Assembly: GCA_025350885.1 (NCBI GenBank) | Contig: JANXXA010000392.1 | Span: 1 to 11,239 of the forward strand | Reading direction: 5' to 3' | Origin: Phenylobacterium sp. | GTDB lineage: Bacteria > Pseudomonadota > Alphaproteobacteria > Caulobacterales > Caulobacteraceae | DNA length: 11,239 bases | Part shown: positions 1,574 through 9,720 of the stretch, piece by piece | Layout: each line of letters starts with the position of its first letter | How positions within the stretch are numbered: position 1 is the first letter of the stretch | Notes under the pieces: generated by a model | Told to the model about the DNA's origin: nothing | The model's database searches: none | What the model saw: the letters and a program-made list of their open reading frames with translations, nothing else | Program-made: the position numbers and the translations under genes

Positions 1574-2712
1574 CGCAACAGGTCCGCGGGCTGGCTCTTC
1601 TTGAGGATGCCCAGGGACAGCAGCCCCGAGGCGATGGAGATCACGATCAGCAGGGTGGCGACGCCGACGACCCAGGTCGCCGGGAAGCCCATCGGCAGGC
1701 CGCCGTGCTGGCCGAGCAGGTAGACGAGCCAGGTGAACACCGCCGTGGCGAGCAGGCCGGCGAGGCCGACCCAGACCGACAGCTCCAGGATGATCCAGCG
1801 CAGCGAGCCCATCGACACGCCCAGCGCGCGCAGGCTGGCGAACTCCTTGATGCTGGCCAGGATCGCGCCGCGCAGCGTCTGGGAGGTGATGCCGACGCCG
1901 ATCAGGAAGCCGAGGAACACCGAGAAACTGAGGAAGATGCCGATGATCTGCTCGCTCATCAGCGCGGTCTCGTTGGCCTTGGCGAGATCGGCCTTGGTCC
2001 AGGCCTTGTAGGCGCCCTTCGACTGGGCGTTCAGCTGATCGACCACCTGCTGGGCTCTGGCCGGATCGCGCAGCCGCACCATCAAGGGGCCGGTCTTGCC
2101 GTTCTTGGGGCCCATGCCGAGCATCCGCATGGTGTCGCGCGACATGTAGACGGTGGGCTGATTGACGTTCGGATAGGTCTCCAGCAGCGCGCGCACGTGC
2201 ACCGTCTTGCCGTTCAGCGTCGCCGTGGCGCCAAGATGGGTCCCCAGCGTCTTCTGGGCCGACTGGTCGATCACCACCGAATAGGGCTCGAGCAGGGCCA
2301 GGCGGACCGATTCCGGGTAGTCCACCGGCAGCGTCACCGCACCGGGCCGCGGATCGACGTCGAAGGTGTTGACGAAGGTGGTGACCGTCTTCTTGCCGGG
2401 CGCGGGCGTATTGACCCAGCGCGCGCCGTCGCCGTCCAGGCTCTCGACCTCGACGACCTGCGGGTTGAGGTAGATCAGCGGCTGGATGCGTTGCGGCAGG
2501 CCATCCGGCCCCGAGTTGATCAGGCTCTCGTTCTTCGGGGCCAGGATCATCAGGTCGGCGCGGCTGCGGTCGATCGAGGCGGTGATCGCGCGGACGATGC
2601 CGGTGAACATGCCCACCTGCGCCAGGATCAGCAGGCCGGAGAACGCCAGCGCCACGACGGCCGCCGTATAGCGCCTCCATTCGTAGAGCAGCGTGGCCAG
2701 GGCCAGCGACAT
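1570..2712 (-). CDS. ABC exporter permease, MacB/DevC (FtsX-like, type VII) family
   Basis: A 380-residue inner-membrane permease. The layout is that of MacB-fold subunits: one N-terminal helix (about 17-40, AAVVALAFSGLLILAQVGMF), a large periplasmic domain of about 200 residues (about 45-250), then three helices near 254-276, 306-333 and 346-370. The conserved cytoplasmic coupling stretch between helices 2 and 3 reads TLRGAILASIKEFASLRALG, the usual FtsX-family sequence. Length matches DevC-type permeases (about 385 residues) rather than MacB itself, which carries a fused ATPase; here the ATPase is the next gene, overlapping by ATGA. The start is ATG at 2712, with GGGAG about 11 nt upstream. 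An in-frame extension to 3063 exists but adds a non-conserved, Arg/Pro-rich leader that runs antisense into the Hpt gene. It probably works with the adaptor at the left edge and an unlinked TolC-like channel. Confidence 0.93.
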   Translation of the reverse strand: MSLALATLLYEWRRYTAAVVALAFSGLLILAQVGMFTGIVRAITASIDRSRADLMILAPKNESLINSGPDGLPQRIQPLIYLNPQVVEVESLDGDGARWVNTPAPGKKTVTTFVNTFDVDPRPGAVTLPVDYPESVRLALLEPYSVVIDQSAQKTLGTHLGATATLNGKTVHVRALLETYPNVNQPTVYMSRDTMRMLGMGPKNGKTGPLMVRLRDPARAQQVVDQLNAQSKGAYKAWTKADLAKANETALMSEQIIGIFLSFSVFLGFLIGVGITSQTLRGAILASIKEFASLRALGVSMGSLRWIILELSVWVGLAGLLATAVFTWLVYLLGQHGGLPMGFPATWVVGVATLLIVISIASGLLSLGILKKSQPADLLR

Positions 2713-2871
2713 TCGGATGCGTCTCCCGTTGGAGCGCGAGATGTCGCGCGGCTCGCCGCCAGAGCCAGTTAATTCCCGGTAATCGGGGCTTGCCCAAACC
2801 CTCTCGGAGCCCGCGTGACGCGCTCCGTTACGAGGCGGCGCCAGGGGTCGCCCACGGATGGGAGCGCTGCG

Positions 2872-2901
2872 ATTAAACCTTTGTAATGGTCCGGTTGGCA
2901 A
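2872..2901 (-). promoter_or_regulatory. Candidate sigma70-type promoter of the ABC exporter operon
   Basis: Read on the minus strand: TTGCCA (2901-2896), an 18-bp spacer, then TTTAAT (2877-2872). Each hexamer matches the bacterial consensus at 5 of 6 positions in an otherwise GC-rich region. It would give a leader of about 150 nt before the permease ATG at 2712. An 11-bp hyphenated palindrome, GGCA-AAG-TGCC, overlaps the -35 box and could be an operator. Seen by eye only; no transcript evidence. Confidence 0.42.
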
Positions 2902-2947
2902 AGTGCCTGACCCATACACGGGCGCCCCGCGGAGCCTGATCTGGCGT

Positions 2948-2962
2948 GGAGACACCATATTG
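2948..2962 (+). promoter_or_regulatory. Ribosome binding site and TTG start that define the first Hpt gene
   Basis: GGAG (2948-2951) stands 8 nt before TTG (2960-2962). This is the best-spaced start in the frame and sits about 12 codons before the Hpt helical bundle begins. An ATG at 2858 in the same frame would add 34 residues of low-complexity sequence; AGGGG lies about 10 nt before it, so it cannot be ruled out. Confidence 0.6.
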
Positions 2963-3319
2963 ACTGGCTCAATCGCAGGTCCGTCGGGCGCCCCCGTTCT
3001 CGATGAGCCGGTCCTCGCGGCCTTTGAGCGCGGCATGGGCGCCAGGCACGCCAAACATTTCAAGGCCCGCTTCGTCCTGCGGGTGGGTCAGTTCAAGGAC
3101 ATCATGGCCTCGGGCGCCGACAGTCAGACCAAAGCCCAGGAGGCCCACAAACTGATCGCGCTCGCGGGCAATCTCGGATGCGCTGAGCTGATGGAAGTGT
3201 CCCGCAGGCTGTGTGATGCGTTCCGGCAGGCTGCGCCGGAGGCCGCGCGGATCGCGGTTGCCGCTGGCGAGGCCGCCGATCGCGCGCTCGGCGCATTGGC
3301 TCAGCGGCGGGACGGCTGA
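2960..3319 (+). CDS. Single-domain histidine phosphotransfer (Hpt) protein
   Basis: A 119-residue (from the TTG start) cytoplasmic phosphorelay carrier. The motif EAHKLIALAGNLGCAEL (about 61-77) is the Hpt signature AHxLKGxAxxxG, with His63 as the likely phospho-accepting residue. The canonical Lys/Ser before Gly is replaced, giving HKLIALAG. Flanking sequence is alpha-helical, as expected for a four-helix bundle: helices before (LDEPVLAAFERG..., FKARFVLRVGQFKDIM) and after (MEVSRRLCDAFRQ..., ARIAVAAGEAADRALGAL). There is no other domain. The gene is divergent from the ABC exporter and precedes an AT-rich gap and a lone receiver. It could move phosphate between the kinase encoded at 5623-8469, the nearby receivers and an unseen output protein; these pairings are inferred from proximity. 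The start is uncertain (see the ribosome binding site entry). Confidence 0.82.
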   Translation: MTGSIAGPSGAPVLDEPVLAAFERGMGARHAKHFKARFVLRVGQFKDIMASGADSQTKAQEAHKLIALAGNLGCAELMEVSRRLCDAFRQAAPEAARIAVAAGEAADRALGALAQRRDG

Positions 3320-3339
3320 CGCAGTCTACTTCACGCAAC

Positions 3340-3552
3340 GGTGGAAAATTCAGCAATCCGATTCATGTGGCCGTTAACTGCCCTGAACGCCGTATTACCA
3401 GACACGCCTAACAACTGATTATTGAATTTCGGCGGCTGAACCGATGAAATTGTTAATGTATTTCCTATCTAATTGCTTCAACAGCAACGCGATCCGGATC
3501 TATCCCATAATTGTTGTTTGAATAATCTTCCGCAACCGAGAACCAATTCATC
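3340..3552. promoter_or_regulatory. AT-rich leader/promoter region before the first receiver gene
   Basis: The non-coding interval between the Hpt stop and the receiver gene is strikingly AT-rich: 77 G/C of 180 bases over 3361-3540 by hand count (about 43%), against about two thirds in the flanking genes. It contains recurring AATTG/TAATTG and ATTATTGAA/TTGAATAAT-like words. No single -35/-10 pair was convincing, so this is called as a regulatory region rather than a mapped promoter. A small RNA or long 5' leader is possible. Confidence 0.5.
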
Positions 3553-3559
3553 AAAGGAG
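3553..3559 (+). promoter_or_regulatory. Strong ribosome binding site deciding the receiver start
   Basis: AAAGGAG is followed by an 8-nt spacer and ATG at 3568. The GTG at 3559 in the same frame uses the last base of this Shine-Dalgarno sequence and so is an unlikely start. Confidence 0.85.
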
Positions 3560-3567
3560 TGCTCTCA

Positions 3568-3990
3568 ATGCCGGCGCACAATCCCATCACCATGGTCATG
3601 GTCGACGATGACGTGGACCAGATTTTCGCCACGCGTCGGCTGGTCCGCAGCAATGGCATCGTCAATCACTTCGTGTCCGAATCTAAGTCGGAGCGCCTTA
3701 TCGAGACGCTGGTCGAACTCTATAACGCCCACGAGACGCGAAACATCGTGGTCCTGCTCGACCTCAACATGCCGTACCTGAACGGCATCGAGACGCTGCG
3801 GGCGATCCGTTCGCACAGCCATTTCAAGGATATTCCGGTCTTCATGTTCTCGGCCTCCGACAATCAGGCCGACAAGGACGAGGCGACGCGGCACGGCGCC
3901 AATGGTTACATCGTCAAGCCCTTCACGCTGGAGGCCTTCGTCGCCGCCATGGGTCAGCTGCCGCAGGTCAAGTTCCAGATGGTGGCCTAG
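3568..3990 (+). CDS. Single-domain response regulator (Rcp1-like receiver)
   Basis: A 140-residue lone receiver domain with no output domain. The active site is complete: acidic cluster Asp13-Asp15 (MVDDDVDQ), phospho-acceptor Asp65 (VVLLDLNMPYLNG), Ser95 of the switch (FMFSAS) and Lys117 (YIVKPF). A longer stretch before Asp65 (SKSERLIETLVELYNAHETRN) and the LDLNMPxxNG wording resemble Rcp1-type regulators, which typically pair with separate sensor kinases. The start is fixed by AAAGGAG 8 nt before ATG. It is preceded by an AT-rich 248-nt gap, so it is probably transcribed from its own promoter. It converges on the minus-strand receiver/Hpt pair. It likely acts as a phosphate sink, a phosphorelay shuttle or a protein-interaction switch; the partner kinase is inferred to be the one encoded at 5623. 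Confidence 0.93.
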   Translation: MPAHNPITMVMVDDDVDQIFATRRLVRSNGIVNHFVSESKSERLIETLVELYNAHETRNIVVLLDLNMPYLNGIETLRAIRSHSHFKDIPVFMFSASDNQADKDEATRHGANGYIVKPFTLEAFVAAMGQLPQVKFQMVA

Positions 3991-4010
3991 GCCCGCAGGG
4001 GCGCGGCGCT

Positions 4011-4035
4011 TTGGCAATGTCTTCGGCTTTGCCAA
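4011..4035. terminator. Candidate bidirectional terminator hairpin
   Basis: TTGGCAA (4011-4017) pairs perfectly with TTGCCAA (4029-4035) around an 11-nt loop, between two convergent genes (stops at 3990 and 4101). A run of three T lies just before the left arm and three T before the right arm, but there is no proper U-tract after the stem, so this is tentative. Confidence 0.35.
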
Positions 4036-4100
4036 CGCGGCGCGCCGCCGCCACTCGCAGCGCTTGGCGATGGCAATGCCCGCGGATCGCGCCGCGACCG

Positions 4101-4400
4101 TCAGACAGCGTCCGGCGCAACCGGCAACGCGACAGGCTGCAGTTCGCGCTCCAGCCGCTGAAGATTGGCGAGCGTCGGCGTCTGGGCTTGGGTCAGTTCG
4201 TCATCCACGATGGCGGCGAGCCGGCTGAGTTCGCCATAGCCGAAGCTCCCGGCCGTGCCGGAGAGCCGATGCATCGCCGTGGCGAAGGTGTTGTCCGGGA
4301 GGCGAGCCGGCTCGGCGAGGACCACACGCACCGCTTCGAGATCGGCCGAGCAGCGCGTTCTGAATCGAAGGCGCAAAGCCTCAAGCGGGTCGGCTGCCAT
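4101..4400 (-). CDS. Second single-domain Hpt protein
   Basis: A 99-residue protein with a compact Hpt signature, MHRLSGTAGSFGYGEL (43-58), in which His44 is the expected phosphorylated residue. The HRLSGTAGSFG string matches the HxLKG(S)AG-xxG pattern more closely than the first Hpt of this cluster. Predicted helices flank it (LEALRLRFRTRCSADLEAVRVVL; LSRLAAIVDDELTQAQ). The ATG at 4400-4398 directly follows the TGA of the upstream receiver gene (TGAATG), so the two are almost certainly co-translated. That makes this receiver/Hpt pair the tightest candidate phosphotransfer couple in the cluster. The C-terminal end (VALPVAPDAV) is short and unstructured. There is no other domain. Confidence 0.88.
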   Translation of the reverse strand: MAADPLEALRLRFRTRCSADLEAVRVVLAEPARLPDNTFATAMHRLSGTAGSFGYGELSRLAAIVDDELTQAQTPTLANLQRLERELQPVALPVAPDAV

Positions 4401-4769
4401 TCAACGGGCCAGAATTTCGCGAACGTCCGAGGCGAAGGATATCGGGTCGAAGGGCTTGGTGATGACGCCGGCGGCGCCGAGATTCCGCAGTCGCTGGAGC
4501 TCCTCGGGCAGAGCGCGCGCGGTGACGAAGATCACCGGCGGCGTCTTGTCCGTGAAGCGTTGGCGCATTGCCGCCAGGACCCCCGGACCGTCCATCTCCG
4601 GCATCATCACATCCAGCAGGACGGCGTCGAAACGGGTCTTGCCGATGACCTGGAGGGCGTCAGCCCCGGATGCCGCGATGGTCACCTCGATATCCGGGTC
4701 CAGCGCGAGGCTGTAGGTGGCGAGTTCCCGAATGTCGTCGTCGTCATCGACATAGAGCAGCTTGAGCAT
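4401..4769 (-). CDS. Single-domain response regulator (CheY-like receiver) paired with Hpt
   Basis: A 122-residue lone receiver. The active site is intact: Asp8-Asp12 acidic run (YVDDDDD, five consecutive Asp), phospho-acceptor Asp53 (VLLDVMMPEMDG), Thr83 (IFVTAR) and Lys105 (ITKPFD). There is no output domain; the protein ends just after the last receiver helix (FASDVREILAR). The start is ATG at 4769. An upstream TTG at 4823 in frame would add 18 non-conserved residues and is rejected on domain length. The Shine-Dalgarno sequence is weak. The stop is fused to the start of the Hpt gene, so the pair forms a two-gene operon reading away from the 4868-8469 operon with a short shared upstream region. 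It likely accepts phosphate from the hybrid-less kinase and passes it to the Hpt; this is inference. Confidence 0.93.
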   Translation of the reverse strand: MLKLLYVDDDDDIRELATYSLALDPDIEVTIAASGADALQVIGKTRFDAVLLDVMMPEMDGPGVLAAMRQRFTDKTPPVIFVTARALPEELQRLRNLGAAGVITKPFDPISFASDVREILAR

Positions 4770-4867
4770 CAGGCGTATCCAGGACGACAGGGGCTGCGCG
4801 GCTTTATCACGCGCACCTCGCAATCAACCATCCCATCATGATGCAACTCCCGGGTCAGGCCAACGCA
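4770..4867. promoter_or_regulatory. Divergent intergenic region between the receiver/Hpt and receiver/receiver/kinase operons
   Basis: About 98 bp separate two divergent translation starts (4769 minus, 4868 plus), so both promoters must fit here or overlap coding DNA. A 10-bp palindrome, CATCATGATG (4834-4843), sits in it. No -35/-10 pair stood out. Co-regulation of both phosphorelay arms from this region is a reasonable inference. Confidence 0.4.
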
Positions 4868-5245
4868 ATGCGCATACTCGTCGCCGATGATGACGAACTG
4901 CTCCGTGAAAACATCCAGTTGGCGCTGAGCGCCCGCGGGCATTCGGTGACCGCTTCGGAAGGTTTTGCCGCGCGGTCGTTGCTTGCCAATGAGCGGTGGG
5001 ACGCACTTCTCGTCGATATTCTCATGCCGGATGTCGATGGGTTGGAAATGATCCAGGTCGCGCGCGGCGGAGAAAGCCCTCCGTTCGTGGTGGCCATCTC
5101 GGGCGGCGGAAAGATCTCCGCGGAACAATGCCTGAGTCTGGCGTCGGACTTCGGAGCCGAGGCCATCTTCCAAAAGCCGCTCGACCTCGACGCGGTCGTC
5201 AAGTCGTTGGAGCAAGGCGCGGCTCCCTCGCTGCTCAGGTCCTGA
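4868..5245 (+). CDS. Single-domain response regulator with unusual SGGGK switch loop
   Basis: A 125-residue lone receiver. The acidic residues are Asp7-Asp9 (VADDDE), the phospho-acceptor is Asp50 (LLVDILMPDVDG), the switch residue is Ser78 and the invariant Lys is Lys103 (FQKPLD). The switch loop reads AISGGGKIS, a glycine-rich version of the usual (S/T)A(x) loop, with Pro-Leu rather than Pro-Phe after the Lys. The start is placed at ATG 4868 (MRILVADDDE), where the receiver begins, with a weak AGG 8 nt before it. In-frame ATGs at 4838 and 4841 would add up to 10 residues and lack any Shine-Dalgarno sequence. It is the first gene of a receiver-receiver-kinase operon; its stop and the next start are separated by one base. 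Confidence 0.9.
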   Translation: MRILVADDDELLRENIQLALSARGHSVTASEGFAARSLLANERWDALLVDILMPDVDGLEMIQVARGGESPPFVVAISGGGKISAEQCLSLASDFGAEAIFQKPLDLDAVVKSLEQGAAPSLLRS

Positions 5246-5246
5246 G

Positions 5247-5642
5247 ATGATCGCGGGCCGACTGAACATTCTGGCGATCGACGACGATCCCTTGGTGCTG
5301 GATCTTATCCGCCTCTACCTTTGGGATTTTGATGTCAGCACCGCGGTAAGCGGTGGAGCCGCTCTGTCAATGCTGGCCTCGACCCATCCGGCGCTCGTCC
5401 TGCTCGATGTCAGGATGCCGGAGATGGACGGGCTGCAGACGCTGCAGGGGATTCGGCGGCGACCTCACCTGGCGTCGTCACCGGTGATGATGCTCACGGC
5501 GGCGGCCGACCGCCCGACGATTTCACAGGCCATGGAGGCGGGGGCAAGCGGCTACATGCTGAAGCCCTTCACCCGGCACACCCTCATGCGCCGCGTTAGT
5601 CGCTTTCTGCAAAGATCGCCCGATGACGCCGTCTATTCCTGA
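5247..5642 (+). CDS. Single-domain response regulator, overlapping the kinase gene
   Basis: A 131-residue lone receiver. The acidic cluster is Asp12-Asp14 (AIDDDP), the phospho-acceptor Asp54 (VLLDVRMPEMDG), the switch residue Thr84 (MMLTAA) and Lys106 (MLKPF). After the receiver fold the tail (RRVSRFLQRSPDDAVYS) is short and has no output domain. The ATG is 1 nt after the previous stop, with AGG 7 nt upstream. The 3' end overlaps the start of the kinase gene by 20 nt in another frame, indicating translational coupling. This is therefore the most likely cognate receiver of the kinase, which has none fused to it. The gene may be a receiver that was once or is elsewhere fused to a kinase; that is inference. 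Confidence 0.93.
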   Translation: MIAGRLNILAIDDDPLVLDLIRLYLWDFDVSTAVSGGAALSMLASTHPALVLLDVRMPEMDGLQTLQGIRRRPHLASSPVMMLTAAADRPTISQAMEAGASGYMLKPFTRHTLMRRVSRFLQRSPDDAVYS

Positions 5643-8469
5643 CCCGGCCAGCCGGGCCCGCGGGCAAGAGTTCGCATCGATTGCGATCCTCGGCGCGGCG
5701 TTTTTCGCGGTCGCCGCCCTCAGCCTGATCTTCACCAGAGAGGCGGGCCGCGTCGCGGCGGTCTGGCCGGCGAACGCCCTGTTGCTCGTCGCGCTTCTGA
5801 AGGCGCCGCGCGGCGGACGGGGGATGCGCGTCGCCGCGGCCTGGCTCGGCAATGTCGCCGCGGCGCTGGCAACGGGAAACCCCCTGGCCTCGTACGTCGT
5901 CCTCGCGTCGATGAACTCGGTCGAAGTGCTGGTCTGTTTCCTGACGATGGTGAGGTTCGCGGGCCAGGCCATCGACCTCACCCAGCCTCGGCAGCTGGCA
6001 ATCTTCGCGCTTGCGGGTTTTCTTACTGGCCCGCTCTTGTCCGGCCTGGGCGCGGCCAGCTACCTTCAAGCCACGACGCCCGCACCTTTCCTTGCGACCC
6101 TGACCATCTGGTGGCCGGCGCATGCCCTGGGACTGCTGATTTTTTCCCCGGCCCTGTTGATCCTGGCCGACGGGTCGGGCCGTCGGCTCCTGGCGCGCGG
6201 CATCTGGCGGCGCACGCTGGCGATGGCCGCCATCCTGGCCGTTGCCCTGATGGCCGTCTTCAGCCAGCACCAACTGCCCATCCTGTTTGTCATTTCCCCG
6301 ATCCTGGTGCTGATCACCTTCCAACTTGGGCTGGCAGGGGCCGCGTGGGGTATCCTCGCCACCGCCGCCTATTCGATCACCGCGCTGCTGTTGGGGTCGG
6401 GGCCCACCACTCTCGTGGGGCCGGACCTCGCCGAACGGGCGCAGGTGCTGCAATTCTTTCTGGTCTTCCAGGTCGCGGCGACCCTGCCGCTGGCTTCCGT
6501 CCTCGGCGTCCAGCAGCGGTTGGAAGCCTCATTGCTGGCCGCGCGCAACGCCGCCGACGAGACCGCCCAGGCCTTGAGCGAAGCCAACGCCCTGGCCGCG
6601 GTCGCCGGCGGGATGGCGGGCCTCGGCCATTGGCTCTATCGGCCGGCCACCCGGGAGACCATCTGGTCCGACGAAATGTACCGGATCTATGGCCTCGAGC
6701 CCGCCGCCGGTGTCCCCACCTTCGATGTCGTGGCCAGCCGCTACCATCCCGACGATCAGCATCTGGTGCGGGAATTCGCGCTGCGCTCGCTGCGGACCGG
6801 CGAAGACTATCGCCTCGAACTGAGAGTGCTTCGAGGCGGCGAGACGCGCTCGGTGATTGGCGCGACCACGTGCCAGCGTGCGCCCGACGGCTCAGTCCAT
6901 GCGCTGGTCGGCACGCTCATGGACGTCACCGACCTGCGCAACGTCGAGACCGCCCTCGTCGAAAGCGAAGGGCGCTTGCGGACGCTCGCCGACGCGATCC
7001 CCGACCTGATCCTGCGCACCGACCGCAACGGCGTGATCACCTACGCGTCGCCGGCGTGCCGACAGTATGGCTACGAGCCGGAAGACCTGGTCGGCCGCCG
7101 AACGCTGGACTTCGTCCATCCCGATGACCTGGAAGCGACGAAGCAGCGCAGCGCGCTGGCCTATGCCGGCAACGAATTCGACCGCGACGTCCGGCGCGAG
7201 CAGCGCGTCCGCAAGGCCGATGGCGACTGGGTCTGGCTGGAGAGCAAGCCGACGCAGGTGCGAGACTCCGCCGGCCAGCTGATCGAGATCGTCAATGCGT
7301 TCCGCGATGTGACCCAGCGGCGGGCGTTGGAAGACAAGATCAGCGAAAGTGAGACGCACCTGCGCACGCTGGCCGAGGCGATCCCCGACATGGTCCTGCG
7401 GATGACGCCGGACGGGGTGATCACCTACGTCACGCCCGCCTGCCGTCAGTACGGCTATGAACCCGAAATGCTGGTGGGCCATCGCGCTGTCGAGTTTATC
7501 CACCCCGAGGATCTCGCCACCGCGGAAGAGCGCCGGATCGCTATATTCTCGCCGATGGAGATTGCCCGGGACATCCGGCGCGAGCAGCGCGTCCGCACGG
7601 CCGATGGCGGTTGGGTCTGGCTGGAAGGCAAGCCGACCCAGATGCGCGACGCGTCCGGGCAGGTGGTCGAGGTCATCAACACCTTTCGCGATGTGACCCG
7701 GCGGCGCGCACTCGAGGACGAACTGCTGGAGGCCCGCGCCGTCGCCGAACGATCAACCGTGGCGAAGGCCGATTTCCTCTCCAACATGAGCCACGAGCTT
7801 CGCACGCCGCTGACGGCGATCATCGGGTTCGCCGGCCTGCTCAGGGGCGCCGGCAATCTGGGCGAGCGCGAAATGATGTTCGCCGACCGGGTGGCGACGT
7901 CAAGCCACACGCTCCTGGCGCTGGTCAACGACATCCTCGACTTCTCCAAGATCGAGGCCGGCGCCGTGGAGTTTGAGTCCGCGCCCGTCGATCTCGACGT
8001 GCTCGTCGATCAGAGCGTGGCGATGGTGACCGGCTTGGCGGAGAAGAAGGGACTTTTGCTGTCAGTCCCGCTTGGCGATGACCTGCCGACGATCATGGGG
8101 GACTATTCGCGCCTGCGCCAGGTTCTGGTGAATCTGCTCAGCAATGCCGTGAAATTCACCAGCCAGGGACGGGTCGATCTGAGGATCGCACAGGCTGCGG
8201 ACGGATCCATTCAATTCGAAGTTTCGGATACCGGGGCCGGCATTCCCGCCGACAGGATCGAACAGATCTTTGATCGCTTCACCCAGGCCGACGGATCGAC
8301 CACCCGCACGCATGGCGGCACAGGCCTTGGTCTGGCGATCTGCAAGGGCCTGGTCGAATCGATGGGTGGGAAGCTTTCGGTGCAAAGCACGCCAGGCGTC
8401 GGATCGACCTTTGCCTTCACGCTCCCCGCGGCAGCCATCACCATAGCTGGCGCCCGTTCCGCGGCCTGA
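5623..8469 (+). CDS. MASE1-PAS-PAS-PAS sensor histidine kinase without a receiver
   Basis: A 948-residue inner-membrane kinase, the presumed signal input of the cluster. Residues about 17-296 are a multi-helix MASE1-type sensor: hydrophobic segments throughout, with the family's VWPANALLL motif at 47-55. Three PAS domains follow: PAS1 about 325-437 (GLGHWLYRPATRETIWSD..., ending GTLMDVTD), PAS2 447-574 and PAS3 575-702. HisKA has phospho-acceptor His724 in FLSNMSHELRTPL. HATPase_c has the N-box NLLSNAVKFT (Asn841), G1 DTGAGI (869-874) and G2 GGTGLGLAI (898-906). The HisKA wording is typical of hybrid kinases, yet the protein ends (AITIAGARSAA) right after the ATPase domain, so receivers must be supplied in trans, plausibly by the adjacent lone receivers. 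PAS2 and PAS3 are 79/128 identical by hand count. The ATG overlaps the previous gene by 20 nt. The signal is unknown; MASE1 ligands are not well defined. Confidence 0.95.
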   Translation: MTPSIPDPASRARGQEFASIAILGAAFFAVAALSLIFTREAGRVAAVWPANALLLVALLKAPRGGRGMRVAAAWLGNVAAALATGNPLASYVVLASMNSVEVLVCFLTMVRFAGQAIDLTQPRQLAIFALAGFLTGPLLSGLGAASYLQATTPAPFLATLTIWWPAHALGLLIFSPALLILADGSGRRLLARGIWRRTLAMAAILAVALMAVFSQHQLPILFVISPILVLITFQLGLAGAAWGILATAAYSITALLLGSGPTTLVGPDLAERAQVLQFFLVFQVAATLPLASVLGVQQRLEASLLAARNAADETAQALSEANALAAVAGGMAGLGHWLYRPATRETIWSDEMYRIYGLEPAAGVPTFDVVASRYHPDDQHLVREFALRSLRTGEDYRLELRVLRGGETRSVIGATTCQRAPDGSVHALVGTLMDVTDLRNVETALVESEGRLRTLADAIPDLILRTDRNGVITYASPACRQYGYEPEDLVGRRTLDFVHPDDLEATKQRSALAYAGNEFDRDVRREQRVRKADGDWVWLESKPTQVRDSAGQLIEIVNAFRDVTQRRALEDKISESETHLRTLAEAIPDMVLRMTPDGVITYVTPACRQYGYEPEMLVGHRAVEFIHPEDLATAEERRIAIFSPMEIARDIRREQRVRTADGGWVWLEGKPTQMRDASGQVVEVINTFRDVTRRRALEDELLEARAVAERSTVAKADFLSNMSHELRTPLTAIIGFAGLLRGAGNLGEREMMFADRVATSSHTLLALVNDILDFSKIEAGAVEFESAPVDLDVLVDQSVAMVTGLAEKKGLLLSVPLGDDLPTIMGDYSRLRQVLVNLLSNAVKFTSQGRVDLRIAQAADGSIQFEVSDTGAGIPADRIEQIFDRFTQADGSTTRTHGGTGLGLAICKGLVESMGGKLSVQSTPGVGSTFAFTLPAAAITIAGARSAA
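6961..7728 (+). repeat. 384-bp tandem duplication encoding PAS2 and PAS3
   Basis: Unit 1 (6961-7344) and unit 2 (7345-7728) are equal in length with constant register. GTGATCACCTAC occurs at 7033 and 7417, CCGGCGCGAGCAGCGCGTCCGC at 7191 and 7575, and GATGTGACCC at 7306 and 7690; each pair is 384 bp apart. Each unit encodes 128 residues, and 79 of the 128 are identical. Conservation is highest around PACRQYGYEP and RREQRVR..ADG.WVWLE.KPTQ, and lowest in the stretch 505-520 versus 633-648. Confidence 0.9.
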
Positions 8470-8526: not shown

Positions 8527-9624
8527 CTACTCCCCGCCGCCGCCGGCCTTGGTCTTCTCCGGGATCGGCGTGCCGAAGATGCCGGGGCCCTGGCTCGGCT
8601 TGATGCCCTGCGCCTCCTGTCGGCGCGCGCCGCCCAGGATGCCGGCCATGGCGTAGTTGCCCTCGTGGCAGGCGTATTCATAGACGCCCGCCTTGCGCGC
8701 GTTCAGGCTCTCTTCCCCCCGCCAGGTCCCAGTGTAGTAGACCGGGTCATCGACCAGGAACTCATAGAAGATCTGTTCCTGCGACGCCCGGCTGAGCCGC
8801 TCGACGACGTGGCCGCGCGGCGACAACGGCACCGGCCCCTGGCGGGCCTGCTGCGGGTTGACGTTGACGGTGTCGATGACCAGCGTATCGCCCTCCCACC
8901 AGCCGACGCTGTCGCCCAGCCACTGCACCACGGCGGCGGGCTTGTGGTGGGCCAGCGCCCGGGCGCGGTCGGCGTAGAGCGGGATCACCCGCGCGTCGTG
9001 AACCATCTCCACGTCGATGACGATGGCGTCGGGCGTCTGCACGATCTGATAGGTGTTGTTGTAGATGGTATTGAGCATCCCCGGACCGCCGGCGCCGGAG
9101 AAGCCGATCAGGCAGCGCTCGGGCAGAGGAAGGTACTCGGGTCCGGCGTAGAGGTGCTCGGTGCGCTCGGCCCGGGCCTTGGCCTGCATCTGGCGGCCGG
9201 CCTCGGAAAACGGCGCCTGGCCGCTGGCCGGCTCGACGATCCAGGAGGTGCGGAACTCGCCCTTGACGTTGGCCAGGCTGCGGCCCGGGTCGAGCCAGAA
9301 GGCGTTGTAGCCGCGGTCGGAATTCTCGTCCTTGAGCAGGTTGTCATCGAGCTTCGAGGGGCCTTCCTCGGACTCGATGAGCTTCATGAACGGGTTGTCC
9401 CTGGCCAGCTTGTCGGCCTCGGGCTTGGACACCGCCAGCTTGACGCCCGGCGGCCGGGTCAGCTGGGTGATCGAAGCGTTGGTCCAGACGCCGGTGAGGT
9501 CGGGGCGGCCATTGCTGGTGCGGGGCGGCGTCCAGGGTTTGGGCGAGGCCGCCGTCCCCGATCCCGCTGTCGCCAGCGCCAGAACGCCGGCCAGAACTGC
9601 TGTGATCGGTACGCTGTGCGCCAT
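8527..9624 (-). CDS. Secreted protein of unknown function (GRPDLTGVW / GWWEGDTLVIDT family)
   Basis: A 365-residue exported protein with no assigned activity. Residues 1-26 form a signal peptide (PITAVLAGVLALATAG core, AlaXAla-like end at GTAA). The mature part starts with NGRPDLTGVWTN (38-49) and contains GWWEGDTLVIDTVN (241-254) and YEYACHEGNYAMAGIL near 315-330. These phrases recur in a family of uncharacterised exported proteins common in Caulobacterales, sphingomonads and Acidobacteria (recognised from memory, no search). The mature chain has two cysteines, Cys171 (ERCLIG) and Cys319 (ACHEG), which could form a disulfide. The start is ATG at 9624, with GGGAGG 6 nt upstream; an in-frame extension to 9768 would bury the signal peptide and is rejected. 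It is convergent with the kinase gene (57-nt gap, no clear terminator) and divergent from the nucleoside transporter. Confidence 0.9.
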   Translation of the reverse strand: MAHSVPITAVLAGVLALATAGSGTAASPKPWTPPRTSNGRPDLTGVWTNASITQLTRPPGVKLAVSKPEADKLARDNPFMKLIESEEGPSKLDDNLLKDENSDRGYNAFWLDPGRSLANVKGEFRTSWIVEPASGQAPFSEAGRQMQAKARAERTEHLYAGPEYLPLPERCLIGFSGAGGPGMLNTIYNNTYQIVQTPDAIVIDVEMVHDARVIPLYADRARALAHHKPAAVVQWLGDSVGWWEGDTLVIDTVNVNPQQARQGPVPLSPRGHVVERLSRASQEQIFYEFLVDDPVYYTGTWRGEESLNARKAGVYEYACHEGNYAMAGILGGARRQEAQGIKPSQGPGIFGTPIPEKTKAGGGGE

Positions 9625-9720
9625 TGCCGCCTCCCTTGCGGGCGCTCTGATGAAAGGCCGGCGCCCGTCCGTCGTGGCGGCGAAGCTAACACGCCCGCGC
9701 CTCCGCGACAGGCTGCATTC

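Follow-up and report, generated by a model that had tools for sequence, protein, structure and literature searches.

Can a histidine kinase, receivers and histidine phosphotransfer (Hpt) proteins that are all encoded as separate genes at one locus make up a single phosphorelay? This question is raised by a contig of a Phenylobacterium genome, a member of the Caulobacteraceae (contig JANXXA010000392.1 of assembly GCA_025350885.1). The window analysed here is this whole contig (C201 in our numbering; 11,239 bases), and its genome is incomplete (3.09 Mb in 598 contigs, 73% complete). The CckA of this genome exceeds the Caulobacter-type model (1085.8 against 1000 bits); so does that of 6 of 8 relatives in the genus and of 1 of 14 control genomes, but of none of five genomes from other families in the order, which makes the Caulobacteraceae the probable family. 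The window contains seven consecutive genes that encode signalling modules only: Hpt1 and the receiver RR1 on the plus strand, the receiver RR2 followed by Hpt2 on the minus strand, and the receivers RR3 and RR4 followed by the kinase HK on the plus strand (Table 1). A first-pass annotation, made from the sequence alone, had described all seven as one fully dispersed phosphorelay. Our comparisons support a narrower answer: five of the genes (HK, RR2, Hpt2, RR3 and RR4) are likely to form one module, of which RR1 and Hpt1 are unproven members. We favour, with a little less than even confidence, the reading that this five-gene core is an unfused multistep phosphorelay in which phosphate would pass from HK through RR2 and Hpt2 to RR4. 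G numbers denote the genomes compared (G000 being that of the window), L numbers the gene neighbourhoods compared and W the window.

The domain anatomy of the core is that of a relay taken apart. HK gives Pfam matches to MASE1 (65.5 bits), HisKA (70.8 bits) and HATPase_c (114.8 bits) and also contains PAS domains; the ATPase match ends at residue 937 and the protein at residue 948, and the 11 remaining residues hold no receiver. HK has the HisKA histidine and ATPase domain of a multistep phosphorelay kinase, and lacks the fused receiver of a hybrid kinase. All four receivers score above the Response_reg cut-off (RR1 66.4, RR2 84.6, RR3 54.9 and RR4 93 bits), and each has the complete acidic pocket, Asp, Thr/Ser and Lys of a phosphorelay receiver. 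Hpt2 passes the Pfam model for the phosphotransfer component (Hpt, PF01627; 26.9 bits against a cut-off of 24.6), its counterpart in G132, another genome of the genus, scores 41.4 bits, and His44 is invariant across 13 aligned Hpt2-type sequences. A Pfam scan of the seven genes found no output domain in any of them. The first-pass annotation had thus correctly described a receiver-less HisKA-type kinase, four lone receivers with complete active sites and a locus with no DNA-binding or enzymatic output. It was also right that the genes are consecutive, but RR2 and Hpt2 lie on the minus strand and the set is therefore not one operon. In this pair the TGA of RR2 directly abuts the ATG of Hpt2; in the plus-strand run of RR3, RR4 and HK, the last two overlap by 20 bases. 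A promoter and terminator scan of positions 2700–5300 found no sigma-70-type promoter match and no terminator.

Table 1. Signalling genes of the window, and receiver–GerE (LuxR-type) regulators near Hpt genes in related loci.
Feature	Position	Strand	Details
Hpt1, probable lone Hpt	2960–3319	+	119 residues from TTG 2960, GGAGA ahead of start; His63
RR1, lone receiver	3568–3990	+	140 residues; most likely start ATG 3568, after AAAGGAG; Asp65
Hpt2, lone Hpt protein	4101–4400	-	99 residues; His44
RR2, lone receiver	4401–4769	-	122 residues; start ATG 4769; Asp53
RR2/RR3 divergent intergenic region	4770–4837 (to 4867 if RR3 starts at 4868)		68 or 98 bases
RR3, lone receiver, CpdR-like	4838–5245	+	start 4838 or 4868
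RR4, lone receiver	5247–5642	+	131 residues; Asp54
HK, histidine kinase without receiver	5623–8469	+	MASE1-PAS-PAS-PAS-HisKA-HATPase; 948 residues; His724
Receiver–GerE regulator	L065:6565-7203		
Receiver–GerE regulator	L080:8528-9172		
Receiver–GerE regulator	L083:12619-13251		
Receiver–GerE regulator	L086:8007-8645		
Receiver–GerE regulator	L089:7980-8744		
Receiver–GerE regulator	L091:13205-13999		
Receiver–GerE regulator	L094:1961-3283		

The five-gene core is also present in one other species of the genus. In G132, a MASE1 kinase with no receiver match and counterparts of RR4 (about 55% identity), RR2 (54%), RR3 (46%) and Hpt2 (46%) lie within about 6 kb of sequence, and RR3, RR4 and Hpt2 each find their best match among the 20 loci compared in this genome. 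RR2 and RR3 are divergent there too, with a gap of 79 bases against 68 or 98 in the window; RR4 has moved and the order is partly changed. The fetched G132 stretch contains no receiver–output gene. Because all five parts recur, chance adjacency is unlikely for these five. The earlier proposal that the modules belong together is upheld for them, by gene content in G132 and by the pairing of RR2-type and Hpt2-type genes across the family, but not for RR1 and Hpt1, neither of which was found in G132 (E ≤ 1e-10 for RR1, E ≤ 0.001 for Hpt1).

RR2–Hpt2 is a recurrent cassette of the family. Searches found relatives of Hpt2 in 34 of the 149 genomes of the family and in 12 of the 101 of the genus, both counts including the window's own genome. 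At the level of the class, an Hpt2 profile matches 33 of 289 genomes at E ≤ 1e-6, with many of the matches inside larger frames; Hpt2 has no match among plasmids. The family and genus searches together gave 48 match places. We counted the 37 for which wider surroundings were fetched, six of which are near-identical loci of one genus; the other 11, in frames of 359–918 residues and probably fused domains, were left out. A lone receiver stands no more than 150 bases upstream of the Hpt gene, on the same strand, in 27 of the 37 loci, and the window has this arrangement, a member of the RR2 group immediately preceding its Hpt2-type gene. A kinase lies within 5 kb of the Hpt gene in 26 of the 37 (27 at a looser threshold): six of these kinases are receiver-less, four have one fused receiver and 16 have two, the near-identical loci accounting for six of the 16. 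Only in the window and in G132 does the nearby kinase carry MASE1.

The receivers of the window are not of one kind. At the position of CheY Tyr106 (the switch residue), RR2 has Val, RR3 Ile, and RR1 and RR4 Tyr. Across the compared loci, Tyr or Phe occupies this position in 1 of 27 Hpt-adjacent receivers (25 Val, one Phe, one Trp) and in 2 of 48 receivers fused to a kinase, as against 39 of the 53 other, unfused receivers; 11 of these 53 carry an output domain (10 with Tyr or Phe), and without them the count is 29 of 42. Fisher's test gives P = 1.2e-9 (2.1e-8 when six near-duplicate loci are removed), values that overstate the contrast because the Hpt-adjacent rows come mostly from one clade, so that the switch residue serves as a type label more than as an independent statistic. 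The available text of PMC9981736 (papers are cited here and below for the accessible parts of their text) argues that relay receivers need not keep the Thr–Tyr switch, describes such variability for CckA and leaves the task of telling relay from output lone receivers to future work. A non-aromatic switch residue beside an Hpt gene would offer a sequence cue for separating these two kinds among lone receivers.

The receivers were also placed in a tree of 82 rows and 122 columns, in which a large number of forks are weak and the bootstrap had not settled. RR2 falls among 21 lone receivers that group together (support 92/93), and 18 of these immediately precede an Hpt gene; the second fused receivers found in hybrid kinases form the sister group (91/86). 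RR3 belongs to a well-supported group of six (100/97) with lone receivers of L061, L063, L067, L069 and L093. Its top NCBIfam match is CpdR, at 57.9 bits far below the cut-off of 180, and we thus call it no more than CpdR-like; as judged by eye, its β4 strand keeps the S-G-G of the FATGUY motif of MrrA/SdrG receivers but neither the F nor the Y, and in RR1, RR2 and RR4 an Ala follows the Ser/Thr of β4. RR4 pairs with its G132 copy, to which it is 56% identical in a search of the genus. Among the other matches listed from 101 genus genomes (up to 42 candidates scored in each), none exceeds 43% identity to RR4 over most of its length, and one at 47% covers 66 residues. An origin of RR4 by fission of a fused receiver was considered and rejected, as RR4 groups only with the G132 copy (and the long-branched RR1) and with neither fused-receiver group. 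We likewise rejected RR4 as a cyclic di-GMP-binding Cle protein: by eye, the motif given in the accessible part of PMC5677366 is absent from its short C terminus.

From these sequences the following circuit can be proposed. The MASE1/PAS kinase would sense a membrane or cytoplasmic cue and autophosphorylate on His724. Phosphate would pass to Asp53 of RR2, which is the type of receiver found fused in hybrid kinases; as it has no aromatic switch residue, RR2 appears built to hand phosphate on and would transfer it to His44 of Hpt2, encoded next to it in the operon. Hpt2 would then charge RR4, which keeps the Thr–Tyr pair; this step is the least sure. Since RR4 has no output domain, it would act by binding another protein, in the manner of CheY or DivK. 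RR3 may be a side branch or a second target, and RR1 and Hpt1 would be neighbours of uncertain involvement.

The larger circuit of the first-pass annotation, in which all seven genes form one relay with two Hpt proteins, depends on these two neighbours, and we regard it as very improbable. Adjacency speaks for it, as does a profile comparison in which Hpt1 resembles the Hpt2 family (hhalign probability 25.5, E = 7.5e-4), and two putative Hpts have been proposed for the Caulobacter Hmr pathway in the available text of PMC11481889. RR1 and Hpt1, however, which sit apart from the other signalling genes, have no match in G132 at the thresholds given above, and Hpt1 has matches in only 4 of 149 family genomes at E ≤ 0.001, its own included. 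Of the two small Hpt proteins first described, Hpt2 is secure; Hpt1 is probably an Hpt protein too, and no more than probably, because it stays below the Pfam cut-off (14.3 against 24.6 bits, E = 0.05) and its AlphaFold model, all-helical and weak (pLDDT 68), has no Foldseek match at E ≤ 0.001. Two close relatives score 13.6 and 10.9 bits (E = 0.084 and 0.58), and a weak relative in G104, itself at 21.9 bits, forms the C-terminal end of an open reading frame that also encodes a receiver. RR1, a long lone branch in the receiver tree, may be an accessory or an unrelated receiver: in a search of 149 family genomes (up to 27 candidates scored in each), its matches outside its own genome are 25–35% identical along most of its length and reach 43% at most in short segments. 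To say that every module is separate and duplicated was therefore an overstatement, as there is one secure Hpt protein and the receivers are of differing types. Elsewhere in the window's own genome, a single further Hpt match above the Pfam cut-off was found, in a 152-residue frame of L001 (G000:C17:12454-12588).

Several observations weigh against the five-gene relay itself, beginning with the single clade that supplies most Hpt-adjacent receivers. The full core was found in only 2 of 101 genus genomes (G000 and G132), traced by RR4 with up to 42 candidates scored per genome. Among 20 loci compared and in the tree, the nearest relatives of RR2 are in G140 and G121 rather than G132, and the G132 counterpart has Phe as switch residue and does not immediately precede its Hpt gene. 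At 16 of the 26 loci with a near kinase, that kinase already carries two fused receivers, so the step taken by RR2 may differ there. In L079 and L117, moreover, RR2–Hpt2-type pairs have no kinase in the 5 kb around them, which would suit two systems lying side by side, with HK and RR3/RR4 as an ordinary two-component system and RR2–Hpt2 serving a hybrid kinase encoded elsewhere; the strands divide the genes in the same way, RR3–RR4–HK being one unit and RR2–Hpt2 another. Yet both units recur together in G132 with their divergent arrangement kept, and a kinase stands within 5 kb of 26 of the 37 lone Hpts; we consider two separate systems somewhat unlikely. The remaining difficulty concerns output. 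Receiver–GerE regulators lie 0.3–5.4 kb from the Hpt gene in 7 of the 37 loci (Table 1), and in an eighth, L095, at 6.7 kb; a known output domain, as a terminal regulator would have, is absent from the receivers of the window and present within 5.4 kb in these seven. In relatives the relay may thus end in DNA binding, and the output may be elsewhere. By extension, Hpt2 could charge a DNA-binding regulator encoded outside the window, leaving RR3 and RR4 as branches or as phosphate sinks, for which LovR with LovK, described for MrrA in the accessible part of PMC5964349, is a precedent. We judge this unlikely, as no close counterpart of the L065-type regulator (best 31% identity in the window's own genome, 38% in G132) or of the L086-type regulator (30% and 31%) was found; since the own genome is 73% complete, a counterpart may lie outside the assembly.

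The five-gene relay, if correct, bears on how fused and unfused relays are related. We tentatively suggest, at rather lower confidence than the circuit itself, that RR2–Hpt2 is a portable cartridge which the family joins to kinases that have two fused receivers, one or none. The window and G132 would be its fully unfused form, in which the middle receiver is freed and output occurs through CheY-like protein binding; one homologous relay would then exist in fused and unfused versions. A search of the 149 family genomes with HK (five candidates scored in each, so that relatives may be missed) gave its best full-length relatives in G019, G061 and G045, at 35–41% identity, all of them hybrid kinases with a fused receiver; the stretches fetched around these kinases contain no lone Hpt, that of G061 ending at a contig edge beside the kinase. 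A search with HK of genome contigs of named organisms gave four loci, all from Niastella or Treponema. In a tree of the kinases, those without a receiver in W, L061, L062, L066 and L082 branch outside the main group of one-receiver hybrids (95/83), as do two one-receiver hybrids, and the order among the receiver-less kinases is not settled. Should the wiring be true, a comparison of homologous relays whose kinases have no, one or two fused receivers would allow a direct look at what fusion does for specificity, branching and signal gain.

Some further features of the loci were recorded. In all 16 two-receiver hybrids beside RR2–Hpt2-type pairs (L063, L064, L067, L069, L070, L083–L088, L090, L092–L094 and L122), the residue that follows the conserved Lys of the second fused receiver is Ser rather than Pro. 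In L119 (10666-11527), the kinase next to the Hpt2-type gene is divided between two short frames that overlap, and it looks broken or frameshifted; it was counted among the six receiver-less kinases. Hpt2-type genes with lone receivers and no kinase within 5 kb are found in L071 and L118 as well as in L079 and L117, and their kinases are probably elsewhere. A shared non-signalling neighbour was considered and rejected in a comparison restricted to families without signalling domains, as those present in at least four loci look, by eye, like reverse-strand shadows of signalling genes or recur within sets of loci whose surroundings are alike. Neighbours common to L083, L086, L089, L091 and L094 resemble chaperone–usher fimbrial genes by eye, a likeness that is unconfirmed: in a scan of three of them, one matched PapD_N below threshold (20.3 against 23 bits) and the other two had no match. 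In the window, the signalling genes are flanked on the left by an ATP-binding cassette (ABC) export region with a DevC-like permease (60.6 bits, below the cut-off of the NCBIfam model) and on the right by a minus-strand gene and then a NupC-family transporter. The minus-strand gene (8527–9630, about 366 residues) has no Pfam match at E ≤ 1 and no NCBIfam match at E ≤ 0.01.

No published account of this cluster was found in the literature, as covered by the titles and abstract openings listed (two of the lists giving 20 of 35 and 20 of 27 entries), and among its closest likenesses are the family cassettes described above. Like the window, these place a lone receiver gene just ahead of a lone Hpt gene, usually have a kinase nearby and in several cases contain an RR3-type receiver. 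They differ in that most of the near kinases have two fused receivers (16 of 26) or one (4 of 26), in the restriction of MASE1 to the window and G132, and in the LuxR-type regulator within 5.4 kb in 7 of 37. Lone Hpt proteins are reported from 28% of proteomes in the accessible part of PMC4558063, which also names Kin–Spo0, another established unfused relay. The CckA–ChpT–CtrA/CpdR system resembles the window in having a separate transferase that feeds more than one receiver (PMC9981736), and RR3 resembles CpdR; unlike the window, CckA is a hybrid, CtrA is a response regulator that controls transcription and ChpT is a dimer, and RR3 falls well short of the CpdR cut-off. The HmrABCX system of Caulobacter, which controls attachment and motility, has a kinase, lone Hpt candidates and divergent operons, as far as its description in PMC11481889 allows comparison; in contrast to the window, HmrA is a hybrid with HAMP, HmrB has no Hpt motif and HmrC is a membrane protein.

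In the Kin–Spo0F–Spo0B–Spo0A relay of Bacillus, as in the window, the kinase, the lone receiver and the transferase are separate proteins. Spo0A binds DNA. Spo0B, unlike Hpt2, is described as a dimeric kinase-like transferase (PMC5898713, PMC11481889). Unfused relays described from Alphaproteobacteria include Pak–SdrG–PhyT–PhyR of Sphingomonas (PMC5898713) and, in Caulobacter, the kinases–MrrA–PhyK–PhyR relay with its LovK–LovR sink (PMC5964349). These stress relays likewise keep kinases apart from a lone intermediate receiver, use a separate transferase and may include sinks; they employ mostly HWE/HisKA_2 kinases, kinase-related transferases and PhyR as output, whereas the window has a HisKA (PF00512) kinase, a Pfam-type Hpt and no PhyR-type or other output gene among the seven. 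Because the SdrG and MrrA relays are unfused, an unfused relay is not new in itself; what differs here is the combination of a receiver-less MASE1 kinase with a whole core that is unfused in one locus.

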